Positions 11,689 through 62,782 of a stretch of 64,000 bases of DNA are shown piece by piece. The notes beneath the pieces are model-generated. The model did no database searches. It had not been told where the DNA came from and saw only the letters and a list, made by a program, of their open reading frames with translations. A program made the position numbers and the translations under genes. Where the stretch lies: positions 1 through 64,000 of the forward strand of contig CASFPE010000018.1 in NCBI GenBank assembly GCA_949296575.1. The letters run 5' to 3'. The DNA comes from an uncultured Bacteroides sp. (GTDB lineage: Bacteria > Bacteroidota > Bacteroidia > Bacteroidales > Bacteroidaceae). Each line of letters begins with the position of its first letter. Within the stretch, counting starts at the first letter, position 1.

Positions 11689-11910
11689 GCGGGAGGAAAC
11701 TTCTGTTTGGCGGGGTGGAAATTTTCGGTTGTGCGGGAGAAAACTTTCATTCATGCGGGCAGGAACTTCTGCCGTCGACGGCGGCTGTATGAATGTCGCC
11801 GTCATTTGTACGGATGTCGTCGTCATCTGTACGGGTGGCGACGGCGGCGGAAAAAGTGATGCGGGTGAGCCGAAGTTCTTGTGCGGGCGGCAGGAAGTTT
11901 TTGCACGGGC
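11689..11910. repeat. intergenic array F (21-23-bp units)
   Basis: Units starting GCGGG occur at 11689, 11710, 11733 and 11755, each carrying GGAAnnTT-like sequence. They run into the 12-bp palindrome GCCGTCGACGGC (11771-11782). Three 21-bp units follow with TGTAcGgaTGtCG at 11786, 11807 and 11828, then GCGGG units at 11861 and 11883. It lies between the operon promoter and the terminator of the next gene and is non-coding. Array G at 44 kb uses the same unit types. Confidence 0.7.
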
Positions 11911-32124: not shown

Positions 32125-32230
32125 CACCCCCTCCACAATGGCCTGTGGGGCATGTTTTGCGGGGTGGATGGATGGCCAAGGCGACGAGTTGGCGAGCGAA
32201 CCAGTTGACAAGGCGGAAGCCCGGCGGGCT
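32125..32230. repeat. dispersed repeat I, copy 1
   Basis: The 36 bases at 32125-32160 match the reverse complement of 61817-61852 at 34 of 36 positions and contain the hairpin CCACAATGGCCTGTGG. A second shared block, GGAAGCCCGGCGGGCT at 32215-32230, matches the reverse complement of 61732-61747. The sequence between the blocks differs. Confidence 0.75.
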
Positions 32231-38957: not shown

Positions 38958-39023
38958 GCCACAATCGTGGCATGCGTGTGCCACAGCCGTGGCGTGCATG
39001 TGCCACAGTTGTGGCGTGCGTTG
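38958..39023. repeat. array B: three 22-bp hairpin units in the efflux leader
   Basis: Each unit is a 14-nt palindrome, GCCACaatcGTGGC at 38958, GCCACagccGTGGC at 38980 and GCCACagttGTGGC at 39002, followed by an 8-nt spacer (ATGCGTGT, GTGCATGT, GTGCGTTG). Related GCATGGTGGC sequences trail to 39063. In the efflux-operon mRNA this gives three tandem hairpins. Confidence 0.8.
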
Positions 39024-39122
39024 CCCGTGCGCATGGTGGCATGTTATGCGCAGGCATGGTGGCCTGCTGTCCATAGGCATGGCATGGGAATCACCTCCCT
39101 TTGCTTCCTATGGAGATGGCGG

Positions 39123-43860: not shown

Positions 43861-43916
43861 ATTCTTTAAAGGGCGGATTGTTTGCATTTCCGGGAAATCC
43901 TGTATTTTTGCAACGT

Positions 43917-43976
43917 GTTTTTCATAGTATTAGATTTAAGGTTAACAAGGTTGGAGTACGGCGGTACTCCTTTTTT
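43917..43976 (+). ncRNA. putative small RNA, Bacteroidales-1-like
   Basis: A short, free-standing transcription unit. Promoter TTTG (43881-43884), 18 bases, TATTTTTG (43903-43910); predicted start near 43917; then about 35 nt (with TTAGATTTAAGGTTAACAAG), and a strong terminator GGAGTAC-ggcg-GTACTCC with six T ending at 43976. No ORF is present. The Bacteroidales-1 RNA motif is described as a small RNA bounded by exactly this promoter type and a terminator; assignment to it is from memory. Confidence 0.6.
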
Positions 43977-44047
43977 ATGCCTTTCCTGTAGATTCTGCGC
44001 ATAGTATTTTCTCTGGCAGTTGTGTTTGTTTTTCTGTTTGGCCGTAT

Positions 44048-44259
44048 GGAAACTTCCGTTCGGCGGTGCTGGAACTTTTGTTTGGCCGCATAGTTTCTTC
44101 TGGCTTCGTCGTCGTTTGTACGGATGCCGCCGTCGTTTGTATAGTTGTCGTCGTCGGTTGTGCTGTCGCCGTCGACGGCAGAAGTTTCTGCCCGTGCAAA
44201 TTGAAGTTTCTTCCCGCGTAAGCGGAAGTTTTCTCCCGCATGGGTGGAGGAATTTCCCG
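44048..44259. repeat. intergenic array G (21-23-bp units), related to array F
   Basis: GGAAacTT units at 44048 and 44071; three units with TTTGTAcgg/TTGTGCTG at 44115, 44136 and 44157; the palindrome GCCGTCGACGGC at 44168-44179; then GAAGTTTC-type units at 44181, 44203 and 44225. Array F has the same palindrome and unit types, with the central units on the other side of the palindrome. It fills the spacer between the small RNA and the TonB receptor stop. Confidence 0.7.
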
Positions 44260-51319: not shown

Positions 51320-51493
51320 GATGCGTTCCCCCTCCACAGGGGGAACGCATTGGGGGTGCCTCCACCGTGCGCATGGTGTGCCGGGGGGGAACGCATTGGG
51401 AGTGGGGTTGGGGAACGCATTCCCCCATAGGGGAGGGAATGCGTTGGGTAGGGGGAGGGGGAATGCGTACCCTCCCCATGGGGGGAATGCGTT
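51320..51493. repeat. intergenic array D (23-24-bp period)
   Basis: An octamer related to AATGCGTT or its reverse complement AACGCATT occurs at 51320, 51344, 51367, 51390, 51414, 51438, 51462 and 51486. Intervals are 24, 23, 23, 24, 24, 24 and 24. Between octamers are 15-16 bases, mostly runs of G or C (for example GGGAGTGGGGTTGGGG). Some neighbours pair into hairpins. The rest of the 51134-51667 spacer shows no gene. Confidence 0.85.
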
Positions 51494-51582
51494 GGGGGTA
51501 TTGGGGGGTACATGTACCCTCCCGCTCCCCCTTCGTGATGGCGCACGGGGGATGCCGCGCAGGGCGCGGGGCAGACGGAAAG

Positions 51583-57058: not shown

Positions 57059-58102
57059 ATGACCGCACAGGATGCTTCCATATTGCTAATCTATACCGGC
57101 GGCACCATCGGCATGATAGAGAATGCCGAGACGGGTGCCTTGGAGAACTTCGACTTCGAGCAACTGCGGTTGCAGGTGCCGGAGCTGCAACGTTTCTCGT
57201 TCCATATCGGCTCCTGCTCCTTCGACCCTCCCATCGACTCCTCCGACATGGACCCTTCCACGTGGGGGCGGCTGGCCACCCTCATCCGTGACAATTACGA
57301 GCGCTACGACGGCTTCGTGGTGCTGCACGGCACGGACACGATGGCCTACACCGCCTCGGCCCTGAGCTTCATGCTGGAGGGCTTGGGCAAGCCCGTCATC
57401 CTGACCGGCTCGCAGTTGCCCATCGGCATGCTGCGCACCGACGGCAAGGAGAACCTCCTGACCAGCATCGAGATTGCGGCGGAGCAGGAGGAAGGCCGCC
57501 CCGTCGTGCCGGAGGTGTGCATCTTCTTCGAGAACCACCTGACGCGCGGCAACCGCACGGTGAAGGTCAATGCCGAGAACTTCAACGCCTTCCGCTCCTT
57601 CAACTATCCCCCGCTGGCGGAGGCGGGCATCCACATCAAGTACGAGCGGCAGTTCATCCGCCGCGCGCCCGGCGGCGCGCCCTTGCGGTGCCACACGCGG
57701 ATGGACACGGCGGTGGCCGTGCTGAAGCTCTTTCCCGGCATCCGCGAGGAAGCGGTGGCCGCCGCCTTGGGCATCCCCGGCCTGCGCGGCCTGGTGCTGG
57801 AGACTTTCGGCGCGGGTAACGCGCCCCGCCACCCGTGGCTCGTGCGCAGGCTCAAAGATGCAGTGGCCGGGGGCATGGTGGTGGTCAACGTGACGCAGTG
57901 CGGGGCGGGCGCCGTGGAGATGGGCCGCTACGAGACGGGGCGCCAGCTCATCGAGGCGGGCGTGGTGTGCGGGCACGACAGCACCACCGAGTCGGCCATC
58001 ACGAAGCTCATGTTCCTCTTGGGGCAGGATTTGCCCCCCGCCGAGGTGCGGCGGCTCATGGGCGTGTCCCTTGCCGGGGAAATCACCGTGCCGCAACCGT
58101 GA
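57059..58102 (+). CDS. ansA: L-asparaginase, type I
   Basis: 347 residues without signal peptide, so cytoplasmic. Catalytic Thr in LLIYTGGTIGMIENAETG (about 12) and the second triad in VVLHGTDTMAYTASALS (about 92). QLPIGMLRTDGKENLLTS and CGHDSTTESAITKLMFLLGQ complete the family signature. It hydrolyses asparagine to aspartate and ammonia; aspartate feeds the divergent threonine operon, a pleasing but unproven link. Start at 57059, with -7 element TACCTTTG at 57024-57031. Confidence 0.95.
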   Translation: MTAQDASILLIYTGGTIGMIENAETGALENFDFEQLRLQVPELQRFSFHIGSCSFDPPIDSSDMDPSTWGRLATLIRDNYERYDGFVVLHGTDTMAYTASALSFMLEGLGKPVILTGSQLPIGMLRTDGKENLLTSIEIAAEQEEGRPVVPEVCIFFENHLTRGNRTVKVNAENFNAFRSFNYPPLAEAGIHIKYERQFIRRAPGGAPLRCHTRMDTAVAVLKLFPGIREEAVAAALGIPGLRGLVLETFGAGNAPRHPWLVRRLKDAVAGGMVVVNVTQCGAGAVEMGRYETGRQLIEAGVVCGHDSTTESAITKLMFLLGQDLPPAEVRRLMGVSLAGEITVPQP

Positions 58103-58138
58103 TGCTTTTCCCTGTTACAGAATGCTTTGTCCCCCTTC

Positions 58139-58315
58139 GTGCGCTTGATACTGCCAGTACCGTGCGCTTGATACTGGCAGTACCGTGCGCTTGATACTGT
58201 GAGTACCACCAGCATGGTACTGTGAGTACCACCAGCATGGTACTGTGAGTACCACAGTTATGGTACTGCGAGTACCACAGTTATGGTACGGCAAGTACCC
58301 ACGTTTAGGTACGGC
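58139..58315. repeat. intergenic array A (exact 23-bp period, hairpin plus octamer)
   Basis: Seven full units and a part. A 15-nt palindrome GRTACTGnnAGTACC (variant GGTACGGCAAGTACC) starts at 58147, 58170, 58193, 58216, 58239, 58262 and 58285, with a partial copy at 58308. The 8-nt spacers come in runs: GTGCGCTT at 58139, 58162 and 58185; ACCAGCAT at 58208 and 58231; ACAGTTAT at 58254 and 58277; CACGTTTA at 58300. No ORF, no cas genes. Confidence 0.9.
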
Positions 58316-58558: not shown

Positions 58559-60685
58559 ATGATCAAACGTTTATTGACAATGGCCTGCGCGGCGGTGTTT
58601 GCGCTGGCAGGCCGGGCGCAGTCGCTCAGCGCGACTGTTGAGGGCATCACGTACACCGTGGAAGAGGGGGCGCAAACCGCCACCGTGTCCCAAGCATACG
58701 TGGGTCTTACCACGGCCAATATCCTTGGCACGGTGGAAATCGAAGGGACGGCCTATCCCGTGGCCGCCATCGGCAATGGCGCTTTTATGGATTGCATGTC
58801 GCTGGAAAGCGTCACGTTGCCCCAAGGGCTGCGCGACATCGGAGAGTCGGCTTTCCAAAACTGCGCATCGCTGGCCAGCATCGCGGTTCCGGAAGGTGTG
58901 ATGGCCATTGGCAGCTATGCTTTCTCGGCTTGCACGTCGCTGGCCAGCGTCACCCTCCCGGAGGGCCTGGAGAGCCTCGGCGTCGGTGCTTTCACGGCTT
59001 GCCGGGCATTGCCGGGCATCACCCTGCCGTCCACGCTGGCGAGCATCGGTGGCGCTGCTTTCATGGAATGTTCGGCGTTGGAAAGCATCGCATGGCCTTC
59101 TTCGTTGGCGACGGTCAGCGGGGATGCGTTCAATGGCTGCATCTTGCTGGCTGATGTCACCCTCCCGGACGGAGTGACCGCGATTGGCGACTATGCTTTT
59201 TCGCGTTGCCAGTCGCTGGCCGCTATCACCCTGCCTTCCACGTTAGAGAGCATCGGCGCAAGTGCATTCTACGAGGCGCCGCTGGCCGACATCACCTGCC
59301 GGGCCGCCGTGCCGCCTGTGTTGGACGACCAGTCCTTCGACCGGGAACATTACATGGAGGCCGCCCTCCACGTGCCGGCCGGGGCAGAGCCGGCCTACCG
59401 CGCCGCCAATGGCTGGATGAACTTCTTCGACAAGGCCACGGTGGACGGCATCCTGTACGTGGTGAACCCCGATACGCGCACCGCCTCCGTGATGGACGGC
59501 ACGTCGGCCGCCGGCTCGTTCGTCCTCCCCGCCACGGTGGAATACGAGGGCGAGGATTACGCCGTCACCTCCATCGGCGAATATGCTTTCTATTCCTGCA
59601 TGGGATTGACCTCCATTGCCATCCCGGAAGGGGTCACTTCCATCGGGTTTGGGGCGTTCGGGTACTGCCGGTTCCTGGAAAGCGTCACCTTGCCGTCCAC
59701 GTTGGCGGAAATCGGTGTCGCTGGTTTCGGGGGCTGTATTTCGCTGCGTGACATCCATTGGCCGGAGGGCTTGCAGCGCATCGGCGATTCGGCATTCGAG
59801 GAATGCACCTCGCTGGAAAGCGTCACCCTGCCTGCCGGGCTGGTGGAAATCGGCGAGTATGCTTTCTGTGCCTGCGAGTCGTTGCAAGAGATTATTTTGC
59901 CCGCCGGGTTGCAAAGCATCGGCGCGGGAGCTTTTGAGGAATGCTCCATGCTGGCAAGCATCGCCCTGCCCGAAGGGTTGCAATACCTTGGCGAAGGGGC
60001 GTTCGCGTACTGCGAGTCGATAGAGAGCATCGTTGTGCCGCAGGGGATGGCGGCCTTTGGCGCGTATGCCTTCGAAGGTTGCATGTCGCTGTCGAGCGTC
60101 ACCCTGCCTGAGGGATTGCAAGCCATTCCCGAAGGGGCTTTCTGCGAGACGGGGCTGGAAAGCATTGACTTGCCGGAGAGCGTCACGGCCATCGAGTTCT
60201 ATGCCTTTGCGGAATGTGCTTCGTTGCGGAGCATCGCCCTGCCCGCCGCCTTGCAGGAGGTAGGCAGCATGGCATTTGCAGAGACCCCGCTGGCGGACGT
60301 TTACAGTTATGCTGCCACTCCGCCTGCGATTGAGGCCGACACGTTTGACGAGGCTGTTTATGCGGAAGCCGCGCTCCACGTCCCCTCCGACGTAGTGGAT
60401 GCTTACCGTGCTGCCGAAGGATGGGAGCAATTCCAGCATATCGACGGCGACTTGCCCTCCACGGGCATCGGCAGCGTGGCGGTGGGTGCCTCCTTCGCCC
60501 GGTATGCGGATGGTGTGGTCACCGCCTCCGGCTTGGCCGAGATCACGGTGCATGATGCCAACGGCGCGCGGGTGCTGCATGCGGCGGATGCCACCACGCT
60601 TGACCTCAACGCCCTGCCGTGCGGCATCTATATAATAAGTATAGAGCAAGGCGGGCAGCGGCAAGTGCTGAAGGTGGCGAGATAA
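58559..60685 (+). CDS. BspA-like leucine-rich-repeat surface protein, sorting tail
   Basis: 708 residues. Signal peptide MIKRLLTMACAAVFALAGRA; then two blocks of about 23-residue BspA-type repeats (residues about 55-245 and 330-600) of the form GAFxxCxSLxSVTLPxGLxx. Each block closes with a module like FDREHYMEAALHVPAGAEPA, then YRAANGWMNF. The C-terminus (LAEITVHDANGARVLHAAD, then GIYIISIEQGGQRQVLKVAR) resembles a type IX secretion tail. Likely a surface adhesin or host-interaction protein. Signal region and tail are nearly identical in DNA to the next gene. Confidence 0.9.
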   Translation: MIKRLLTMACAAVFALAGRAQSLSATVEGITYTVEEGAQTATVSQAYVGLTTANILGTVEIEGTAYPVAAIGNGAFMDCMSLESVTLPQGLRDIGESAFQNCASLASIAVPEGVMAIGSYAFSACTSLASVTLPEGLESLGVGAFTACRALPGITLPSTLASIGGAAFMECSALESIAWPSSLATVSGDAFNGCILLADVTLPDGVTAIGDYAFSRCQSLAAITLPSTLESIGASAFYEAPLADITCRAAVPPVLDDQSFDREHYMEAALHVPAGAEPAYRAANGWMNFFDKATVDGILYVVNPDTRTASVMDGTSAAGSFVLPATVEYEGEDYAVTSIGEYAFYSCMGLTSIAIPEGVTSIGFGAFGYCRFLESVTLPSTLAEIGVAGFGGCISLRDIHWPEGLQRIGDSAFEECTSLESVTLPAGLVEIGEYAFCACESLQEIILPAGLQSIGAGAFEECSMLASIALPEGLQYLGEGAFAYCESIESIVVPQGMAAFGAYAFEGCMSLSSVTLPEGLQAIPEGAFCETGLESIDLPESVTAIEFYAFAECASLRSIALPAALQEVGSMAFAETPLADVYSYAATPPAIEADTFDEAVYAEAALHVPSDVVDAYRAAEGWEQFQHIDGDLPSTGIGSVAVGASFARYADGVVTASGLAEITVHDANGARVLHAADATTLDLNALPCGIYIISIEQGGQRQVLKVAR

Positions 60686-60691
60686 TGATCG

Positions 60692-60720
60692 GGGGCATCC
60701 CGCCGCGTGCGGGGTGTCCC
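60692..60720 (+). terminator. terminator between the two LRR genes
   Basis: GGGGCATCCCGC pairs with GCGGGGTGTCCC (two G:U pairs), loop cgcgt, followed by TTTCC. No consensus promoter is seen in the 42 bases left before the next gene, so partial read-through is likely. Confidence 0.65.
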
Positions 60721-60762
60721 TTTCCTATACCATATTACTAACATAAACCAAACATTTATCTT

Positions 60763-61674
60763 ATGATGAAACAGACACTTTTATTGGCCTGCGCGGCGGT
60801 GCTTGCGCTGGCAGGCCGGGCGCAGGCACAAGAGTTCACGGTTGGCGGGATTGAATACGGCCTATATGCGGATTATGGGCGTGCTTACGTCAATGGTTAC
60901 ACGGGCAGTCCTGTGGAGGTGGTGGTTCCTGCCACGGTGGAATACGAGGGGGGAAGTTATTCCGTGACAGAAATTAGCAGTTATGCTTTCGCGGAGTGCG
61001 CTTCGTTGGAAAGTGTCACGCTGCCCCAAGGGATGACGGATATTTATGAGTCAGCTTTCCAAGACTGCACCGCGCTGAAAAACGTCAGCCTGCCGGAGGG
61101 CTTGGAGTACATCAGCGACCAAGTGTTCTATGGCTGCACATCATTGGAAAGCCTTGTGCTGCCGGAAGGGTTGCAGAAAACCTGCTGGCTTGCTTTTGCG
61201 AACTGCGCCTCGCTGAAAATCATCAGTTTCCCTTCTACCTTCCAGGAAATGGAAGGCCCTACTTTCCGTAATACTCCGTTGGAACACATTGCTTGCCACG
61301 CCGTAGTCCCGCCCGCCATCATGGACGATGACTTCGATGCGGGAACCTATGCCGTTGCCACACTCCATGTGCCTGCCGGTACGGCGGATGCATACCGTGC
61401 CGCCGCAGGGTGGAAGAACTTCCTCGCCATTGAGGAGGACGCAGAGAGGTTCACGGGCATTGCTGCTGTTTCTGCTGCCTCCCTTTCCACTTACGCGGAT
61501 GGCATCCTCACCACTTCCGGCTTGGCGGACATCACGGTGCATGATGCCAGCGGCGCGCGGGTGCTGCATGCGGCGGGCGTTGCCTCGCTGTCGTTGGAGG
61601 CCCTGCCTCGCGGCATTTATATAATAAGTATAGAGCAAGGCGGGCAGCATCAGGTGCTGAAGGTGGCGCGTTGA
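60763..61674 (+). CDS. BspA-like leucine-rich-repeat surface protein, short paralogue
   Basis: 303 residues with the same plan as the gene before it but one repeat block: signal peptide MMKQTLLLACAAVLALAGRA, BspA repeats at about 65-185 (SYAFAECASLESVTLPQGM), closing module FDAGTYAVATLHVPAGTADA, and the tail LADITVHDASGARVLHAAG, then GIYIISIEQGGQHQVLKVAR. It looks like a duplicate of the larger gene that kept both ends and fewer repeats. Surface location inferred from the signal and tail. Confidence 0.88.
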   Translation: MMKQTLLLACAAVLALAGRAQAQEFTVGGIEYGLYADYGRAYVNGYTGSPVEVVVPATVEYEGGSYSVTEISSYAFAECASLESVTLPQGMTDIYESAFQDCTALKNVSLPEGLEYISDQVFYGCTSLESLVLPEGLQKTCWLAFANCASLKIISFPSTFQEMEGPTFRNTPLEHIACHAVVPPAIMDDDFDAGTYAVATLHVPAGTADAYRAAAGWKNFLAIEEDAERFTGIAAVSAASLSTYADGILTTSGLADITVHDASGARVLHAAGVASLSLEALPRGIYIISIEQGGQHQVLKVAR

Positions 61675-61731: not shown

Positions 61732-61852
61732 GCTTCCATCATGGGAAGCTGGGCGGGCTGCCTTTTTGCGGCTGTCCCTGCCGGGCGGGTGTTGCGGAAG
61801 GCTGCCGGACGGGCTTGCAAAACATGCCCCACAGCCCATTGTGGATGGGGTG
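61732..61852. repeat. dispersed repeat I, copy 2 (inverted)
   Basis: Blocks 61732-61747 and 61817-61852 are the reverse complements of 32215-32230 and 32125-32160. The 36-base block differs at two positions and contains the hairpin CCACAGCCCATTGTGG. The gap between blocks is 69 bases here and 54 at 32 kb. Confidence 0.75.
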
Positions 61853-61857
61853 ACGAC

Positions 61858-61925
61858 ACCACTATTGTGGTCACCCCTCCACCGCAATTGTGGTCTCCAC
61901 CCCACCTCCATTGTGGTCTCCGCCT
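61858..61925. repeat. intergenic array C (22-23-bp period)
   Basis: Units ACCACTATTGTGGT at 61858, CACCGCAATTGTGGT at 61880 and CACCTCCATTGTGGT at 61903, followed by 8-nt spacers CACCCCTC, CTCCACCC and CTCCGCCT. A decayed unit (CCTCCGTTGTGGT) is near 61951. The array directly continues the hairpin of repeat I copy 2. Confidence 0.75.
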
Positions 61926-62008
61926 CCCCTCAACGGCGGCCTGCGATCGGCCTCCGTTGTGGTAAATGTTCCATACACGTCGCGGTGCAGGGCCTTGCCT
62001 GTCGCGGC

Positions 62009-62782
62009 CTACTTGATGTTGGCGCGTATGCGGGCGAGGTACTGCTTCATGCCTTCCGCGTCGCGGCGGGTGATGATGTCGAGCAGGCGTTTCAGTTCGG
62101 TGCGGATGCCCTCCACCTGTGCCGGGGTGCGGGGGTTGAAGAGGATTTCCTGCAAGAGGTAGTCGTCTTCCGACAGCAGCCCTTGGGCGATGGACATGTG
62201 GCGCTTGAAGGTGGTGCCGGGCGCGTCCTGGTGTTTCATGACGGCGGCGAACACGAGGGTGGACACGAAGGGGATGGAGAGGGAGTAGGCCACGGTGTCG
62301 TCATGCTCCTCGAAGGTGTATTCGAAGATGCGGAGGCCGAGCGACTGGTAGAGGTCCTTGAAGAACACCTTCCCGAGGTGGTCGCCCTCGCTGATGATGA
62401 TGGCGTTCTCGCTGCTTAGGTTGCTGAGGCTGGCAAAGGTGGGCCCGAACATGGGGTGGGTGGAGACGTAGCGGAAGCCGCACCCGGCGTAGAATGCTTT
62501 CAGCCCCGTCTTCACGGAGGCGATGTCGCTGAGGATGCAGCCTTTGGGCAGCACGGGCATGACGTTGCGGAACGCTTCCAGGGTGTATTTCACGGTGGCG
62601 GCGTTGATGGCGAGTTCCGGCTCGAAGTCTTTTATCTCCTCCAGCGTGGTGAAGCGGCAGGTGTTGTACACGAAGCGCAGCTGGAGCGGGTTGGTGTCGT
62701 ACACGGCCGTCTCGTGCCGGAAGCTGAGGAGGTCGGTGAAGAAGGAGCCCATCTTCCCGGCTCCCAATATCAGTATTCTCAT
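62009..62782 (-). CDS. tyrA: prephenate dehydrogenase
   Basis: 257 residues; NAD(P)-dependent oxidative decarboxylation of prephenate towards tyrosine. ILILGAGKMGSFFTDLLSFR is the Rossmann loop, ILSDIASVKTGLKAF (about 103) and YVSTHPMFGPTFASL (about 125, with the catalytic His) are family signatures, and the C-terminal helical domain (DDTVAYSLSIPFVSTLVFAA) follows. No ACT or mutase domain is fused; the mutase is in the gene upstream. Same strand as the DAHP synthase gene, 93 bases apart. Confidence 0.93.
   Translation of the reverse strand: MRILILGAGKMGSFFTDLLSFRHETAVYDTNPLQLRFVYNTCRFTTLEEIKDFEPELAINAATVKYTLEAFRNVMPVLPKGCILSDIASVKTGLKAFYAGCGFRYVSTHPMFGPTFASLSNLSSENAIIISEGDHLGKVFFKDLYQSLGLRIFEYTFEEHDDTVAYSLSIPFVSTLVFAAVMKHQDAPGTTFKRHMSIAQGLLSEDDYLLQEILFNPRTPAQVEGIRTELKRLLDIITRRDAEGMKQYLARIRANIK

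Follow-up and report, generated by a model that had tools for sequence, protein, structure and literature searches.

What kind of element alternates a short palindrome with 8-nt spacers at a fixed step downstream of an asparaginase gene in an uncultured Bacteroides sp., and is it, as its layout suggests, a small relative of CRISPR arrays? We addressed this in the window, the whole stretch of 64,000 nucleotides that was analysed, to which coordinates refer except where another locus is named.

Structure of the array

The gene and the parts of the array are as follows.

57059..58102, + strand: asparaginase gene (Pfam PF00710 and PF17763, gene prediction)
58139..58314, no strand: palindrome array with a 23-bp step (sequence, shuffle test)
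58139..58207, + strand: block 1, GTGCGCTT plus GATACTGNNAGTACC, three times; each of the other three arrays of the genome starts with this block too
58208..58253, + strand: block 2, ACCAGCAT plus GGTACTGTGAGTACC, twice
58254..58299, + strand: block 3, ACAGTTAT plus palindrome, twice, the second palindrome being GGTACGGCAAGTACC
58300..58314, + strand: end block, CACGTTTA plus the partial palindrome GGTACGG; two other arrays have CACGTTAT or CACGTCAT close to their far end

The array begins 36 bp after the asparaginase stop codon and contains eight octamers, seven complete 15-nt palindromes and one partial palindrome, with a step of exactly 23 bp across all units. The octamer GTGCGCTT starts at 58139, 58162 and 58185, ACCAGCAT at 58208 and 58231, ACAGTTAT at 58254 and 58277, and CACGTTTA at 58300; the 15-mers start at 58147, 58170, 58193, 58216, 58239, 58262 and 58285, and the partial copy at 58308. 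These palindromes, octamer runs and step had been described in an earlier note, with which sequence and coordinates agreed. The palindrome consensus given there, GGTACTGnnAGTACC, was exact in only three of the seven units (58216, 58239 and 58262), while the other four deviated from it: the first three read GATACT...AGTACC, with one imperfect pair and GATACT as the left arm, and the seventh is GGTACGGCAAGTACC. The array unit is a 15-nt dyad with the arms GGTACT/AGTACC and an 8-nt linker. A two-unit pattern with up to three mismatches allowed had six matches in the window and none in 100 shuffled windows, which excludes chance as the source of the array. No Rfam family matched at the array, and a protein-coding repeat was ruled out because 23 is not divisible by 3.

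Four arrays in one genome

All 15-mers of the dyad detected with at most one mismatch in the genome lay within four arrays, which occupy the following sites, where gene names outside the window were assigned by reading translations.

Contig 3 (C3): array in the oadA/ABC-F gap
Contig 14 (C14): array in the rsgA/esterase gap
Contig 18 (C18): the window array, on the asparaginase side
Contig 29 (C29): array in the ispF/menA gap

No solitary dyad site was found in the genome at this threshold, so that solitary operators of a regulator were ruled out. In one orientation, all four arrays share the octamer order GTGCGCTT, then ACCAGCAT-like, then ACAGTTAT-like, and three of them have CACGTT-like octamers close to the far end. 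Runs of equal octamers are present in all four, with copy numbers per block that vary; the shared order and the varying copy numbers together indicate that the arrays descend from one ancestor and have since gained or lost whole units. The proposal of the earlier note that the array grew by unit duplication, with the octamer changing from block to block, is thereby supported, and the octamers, for which it had suggested looking elsewhere in the genome, recur in unchanged order in the three other arrays. Similarity among the four starts at 58138 and is over by 58315 in window coordinates, and their flanks have no leader, tail or terminal inverted repeat in common.

All four arrays adjoin stop codons. 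Three lie between convergent genes, as would the window array if two leucine-rich repeat (LRR) genes beside it were discounted; convergent gaps overall made up 33 of 276 in the sample.

Comparison with CRISPRs and other repeats

As in CRISPR arrays, a palindromic repeat alternates regularly with a spacer of fixed length, and a cas1 gene is present in the genome, as a miniature CRISPR-like or Cas1-driven array would have it. The likeness is superficial. CRISPR spacers are unique, foreign-derived and about 30 nt long, whereas the octamers are 8 nt long, stand in equal runs and are shared in one order among four arrays; their recurrence in the same order in the three other arrays marks them as inherited blocks, not acquired spacers. 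The earlier note was right that no cas gene is seen near the window array; Cas9, Cas1 and a normal CRISPR with a 76-bp step are nevertheless present in the genome, on contig C10, where the sole Cas1 match lies beside its own Cas9 and CRISPR and away from the contigs of the palindrome arrays. The CRISPR-like reading was therefore rejected, its probability being close to nil.

REP/BIME elements are GTAG- and CGTC-tagged palindromes (PMC3733652). Like them, the arrays consist of short intergenic palindromes with linkers, located downstream of genes and often between convergent genes, here at four loci that are all beside stop codons. They differ in that the present arrays are direct with an exact 23-bp step, whereas REP/BIME alternate in orientation, and in that only four loci are involved. 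No GTAG or CGTC tetranucleotide foot was recognised in the unit consensus, and a link to the REP-associated transposase was ruled out because Y1_Tnp (PF01797) had no match in the genome, which is 85% complete. A further trait of REP/BIME elements is that they bind gyrase, IHF or Pol I. BrickBuilt is a minisatellite-MITE of Porphyromonas gingivalis with a leader and a tail whose terminal inverted repeats are like those of IS5 elements, and it was described without spacers between repeats (PMC4596501). It belongs to the same order, Bacteroidales, and shares the 23-nt intergenic tandem unit, species specificity, several loci per genome and variable copy number, whereas here there is a clear dyad with an 8-nt linker and no shared flanks; a MITE with terminal repeats was rejected since the four arrays have neither leader nor tail in common. 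We class the array as a dispersed palindromic minisatellite and a new variant within that kind.

The iterons of plasmid origins, which are protein-binding arrays, are likewise direct repeats spaced about two helical turns apart, but the present arrays occupy several chromosomal loci at gene ends, and no replication initiator gene was seen next to them.

Corresponding arrays in a congener

The exact palindrome pair was absent from 250 other genomes of the family, including the sole congener in the set (G001), and a search of 84,980 species and one of viral contigs gave a single match each, both of two units only and in unrelated sequence, which were taken as chance. The congener has 23-bp arrays at corresponding sites, with similar octamers and other palindromes. 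The earlier note had named the lack of any other array of this layout in relatives as part of what would refute it; such arrays do exist in the congener. Its asparaginase/menA array is built of CGTACA-GTG-TGTACG plus ACAAGCAT, its ispF/prephenate dehydrogenase array of CGTACA-GTT-TGTACG plus ATAAGCAT, with CGTACG...CGTACG variants, and its rsgA/esterase array of CGTACCGGTTGTACG plus ATAACGTC; the array downstream of its oadA gene is of different sequence with the core ACCATGCGCATGGT. At two corresponding sites, octamers matched between the species at 7 of 8 positions (ACCAGCAT with ACAAGCAT and ATAACGTG with ATAACGTC, with 308 and 68 of 20,000 shuffles equally good, respectively), which supports common descent of the arrays. 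The match at ispF was weak, 1630 of 20,000 shuffles being as good.

The dyads differ between the two species at two base pairs, changed on both sides, from GGTACT-NNN-AGTACC here to CGTACA-NNN-TGTACG in the congener. The outer pair is G-C in 22 units and C-G in 13, and the inner pair is T-A in 19, A-T in 10 and G-C in 1. The covariation score was 0.292 against 0.093 for shuffled units, was reached in none of 500 shuffles and was at most 0.107 in slid controls; it rests on two species whose units within one array are not independent, and so shows that symmetry is kept but not how often it changed. Homogenisation may have spread a small number of double changes, in which case the counts overstate the independent events.

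A second palindrome family with 15 + 8 = 23-bp units (ACGATTANTAATCGT plus variable octamers) occurs in both species with unchanged arms and two to three copies per site (L035:9273-9329, L036:3398-3458 and L045:7719-7777; also L048, L049, L050, L051 and L054).

Gene order and rearrangement

Downstream of the window array lie the following features.

58559..61674, + strand: two BspA-type LRR genes between the array and the prephenate dehydrogenase gene (Pfam PF13306); absent at this site in the congener (synteny)
61857..61945, no strand: a further 23-bp array, weaker than the palindrome array and unrelated to it in sequence (core CCACNATTGTGG), located in the gap between convergent genes that precedes the prephenate dehydrogenase gene
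62009..62782, - strand: prephenate dehydrogenase gene (Pfam PF02153), which adjoins ispF across a 23-bp array in the congener

A hairpin resembling a terminator (CCCCACAG...TTGTGGAGGGG with CATGTTTT) recurs at scattered places in the genome, at window positions 61820-61855 and 32125-32160 and at L007:3076-3107.

In the congener, the asparaginase gene faces menA and ispF faces the prephenate dehydrogenase gene, whereas in the genome studied (G000) the asparaginase gene faces, beyond the two LRR genes, prephenate dehydrogenase, and ispF faces menA. A single reciprocal exchange that broke the gene order at two array sites is enough to explain this difference, and the arrays have the orientation that homologous exchange needs; on our preferred reading they are a recombination site as well. 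In a third genus (G002), ispF adjoins menA without a gap, which suggests that the order in the genome studied may be the older. The two LRR genes are a later insertion at the asparaginase site, which leaves the window array at present between codirectional genes, and LRR coding sequence is also inserted at the oadA/ABC-F site of the congener. The arrays mark changes of gene order and, at two sites, insertions of surface LRR genes, and so bear on genome rearrangement.

The exchange at two arrays would also suit an array of crossover sites for a site-specific recombinase, in which arms AGTACC/GGTACT surround an 8-bp core as in loxP and recombination between equal cores yields inversions and the runs of equal octamers. 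Inverted arms around an 8-bp core and equal-core runs are indeed what is seen, but for tyrosine recombinases arms of 6–7 bp are short, adjacent sites would overlap, no recombinase is linked to the arrays, and homologous recombination across the roughly 170 bp of similar DNA is enough for the exchange. We regard this explanation as very unlikely.

Transcription and a proposed DNA-level role

The position of the arrays beside stop codons, mostly between convergent genes, would also be expected of an RNA element, in which the 3' ends of convergent transcripts would carry hairpins in series that terminate transcription or shield the ends of the mRNA, and a role of this type at mRNA ends has been proposed for REP elements. 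RNA of the window array folded better than shuffles on both strands (z of -3.9 and -5.1), and where the second dyad pair forms an A-C mismatch on one strand, the opposite strand forms a G-U wobble. On the other hand, the units lack a following T-run, and no intrinsic terminator, i.e. a GC-rich hairpin followed by a T-run, was found in the window array. The oadA/ABC-F array is flanked on either side by a terminator-like hairpin with a T-run, the two being opposed, and falls outside both predicted transcripts, so that it is probably untranscribed; these hairpins were read directly from the sequence and were not reported by the automatic scan, probably because loop or tail fell outside its rules. 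At rsgA/esterase, the esterase's own terminator precedes the array in both species. The terminators at these two sites favour a role at the DNA level, in the simplest case a dimeric protein bound to neighbouring dyads, over a string of RNA hairpins, which moreover would require neither an exact step nor identical arms at each locus, and the RNA reading appears unlikely.

Our preferred, still tentative explanation, to which we give a probability of about 40%, is that the array belongs to a small dispersed REP/BIME-like family of palindromic minisatellites that grows by unit duplication, whose symmetry and phasing at about two helical turns probably serve DNA-level binding of a putative dimeric protein, and which is also a site of recombination. 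Symmetric half-sites and the 23-bp step would be kept for this protein, perhaps one that handles the nucleoid or supercoils, which between gene ends would sit on adjacent units at roughly one face of the helix. The units would multiply via unequal recombination or slippage, and recombination would homogenise the arrays between loci, making them sites of rearrangement too. Several points count against this explanation: 23 bp corresponds to 2.19 turns of relaxed DNA rather than exactly two, strict spacing is equally expected from plain unit duplication, the present neighbours of the window array are codirectional, and folding on both strands suits an RNA role too. Binding by such a protein could be tested directly in this species and its congener, in which the sites correspond while both arms of the dyad differ.

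Step size across intergenic regions

We scored intergenic self-similarity at each lag from 10 to 60 in 74 kb of intergenic DNA of the genome studied; the survey of this class of arrays is based on sampled stretches of the genome. Lags 21, 22 and 23 gave 14, 26 and 36 events, respectively, with none at 15–20 and nine in total at 24–41, and composition shuffles gave none at 21–23. In the congener, the same three lags gave 5, 7 and 30 events. Among other genera, peaks were found at 21 in G014, at 22 in G012 and G011 (the latter also with lags 11 and 33) and at 21–22 in G003, and almost no lag events in G010 and G002. Among other families sampled, G252 had peaks at 21 and 42, G258 had single events only, and two others as well as E. 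coli had no such peak. Arrays of 21–23 bp were carried by 33 of the 199 sampled intergenic regions of the genome studied (∼17%) and fell into 23 sequence families by simple clustering; many but not all of their units are palindromic, and coding DNA has no 21–23 peak. The array at 61857..61945 is of the same class as the palindrome array, in a different family. In G015 (genus g15), a single intergenic region (L123:1218-1760) holds one 16-bp and two 23-bp arrays, and in one of the latter the unit changes stepwise along the array while the step stays at 23.

The constancy of the step across unrelated sequences argues that geometry rather than ancestry sets it. In the freely accessible full-text literature on intergenic or palindromic tandem repeats of this group we found no description of a 21–23 bp lock, and only BrickBuilt came close. 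It is conceivable, though doubtful, that genomes of the family hold sequence-independent intergenic arrays with a step of about two helical turns (21–23 bp; also 11, 33 and 44 in some genera), which a DNA-bridging or polymerising protein would create or maintain; the palindromic arrays would then be the best-phased among them, with arms that co-evolve with the protein between species. If DNA geometry and not sequence does set the step, many sites report a chromosome-organising or repeat-making activity in these bacteria.

These data also bear on a serious rival, a neutral palindromic minisatellite without function, in which slippage or unequal crossing-over multiplies the units, the dyads stay perfect through hairpin-templated repair and the arrays are homogenised by recombination. 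It agrees with the blocks of identical octamers, their differing copy numbers, the species-specific arms and the rearrangement at arrays, and insertions are tolerated at convergent gene ends. Simple slippage would not, however, be expected to yield a sequence-independent step of 21–23 bp in unrelated repeats of several genera, with almost none at 15–20 or 24–41, nor octamers of unrelated sequence that all stay 8 nt long, and we hold neutrality to be possible with the odds against it.

Further repeats were noted in the sampled intergenic regions. A 21-bp repeat family (about CTGTACAGATGACGACGGCAA) occurs in five of them (window 11773-11852 and 44106-44248; L030, L033 and L038), and a 22-bp array around GGAAGTTTCTTCC follows it at 44181-44239. 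An Rfam match to the FopS sRNA family of Bacteroidetes lies at 43915-43980, near the 21–22 bp arrays at 44106-44248. At 38958-39082, 22-bp and 23-bp arrays with different palindromes (GCCACAGTCGTGGC and GCATGGTGGCATGC) adjoin each other, and a 48-bp G-rich repeat (GGGGGGGAATGCGTTGGG...) is located between codirectional genes at 51383-51496.
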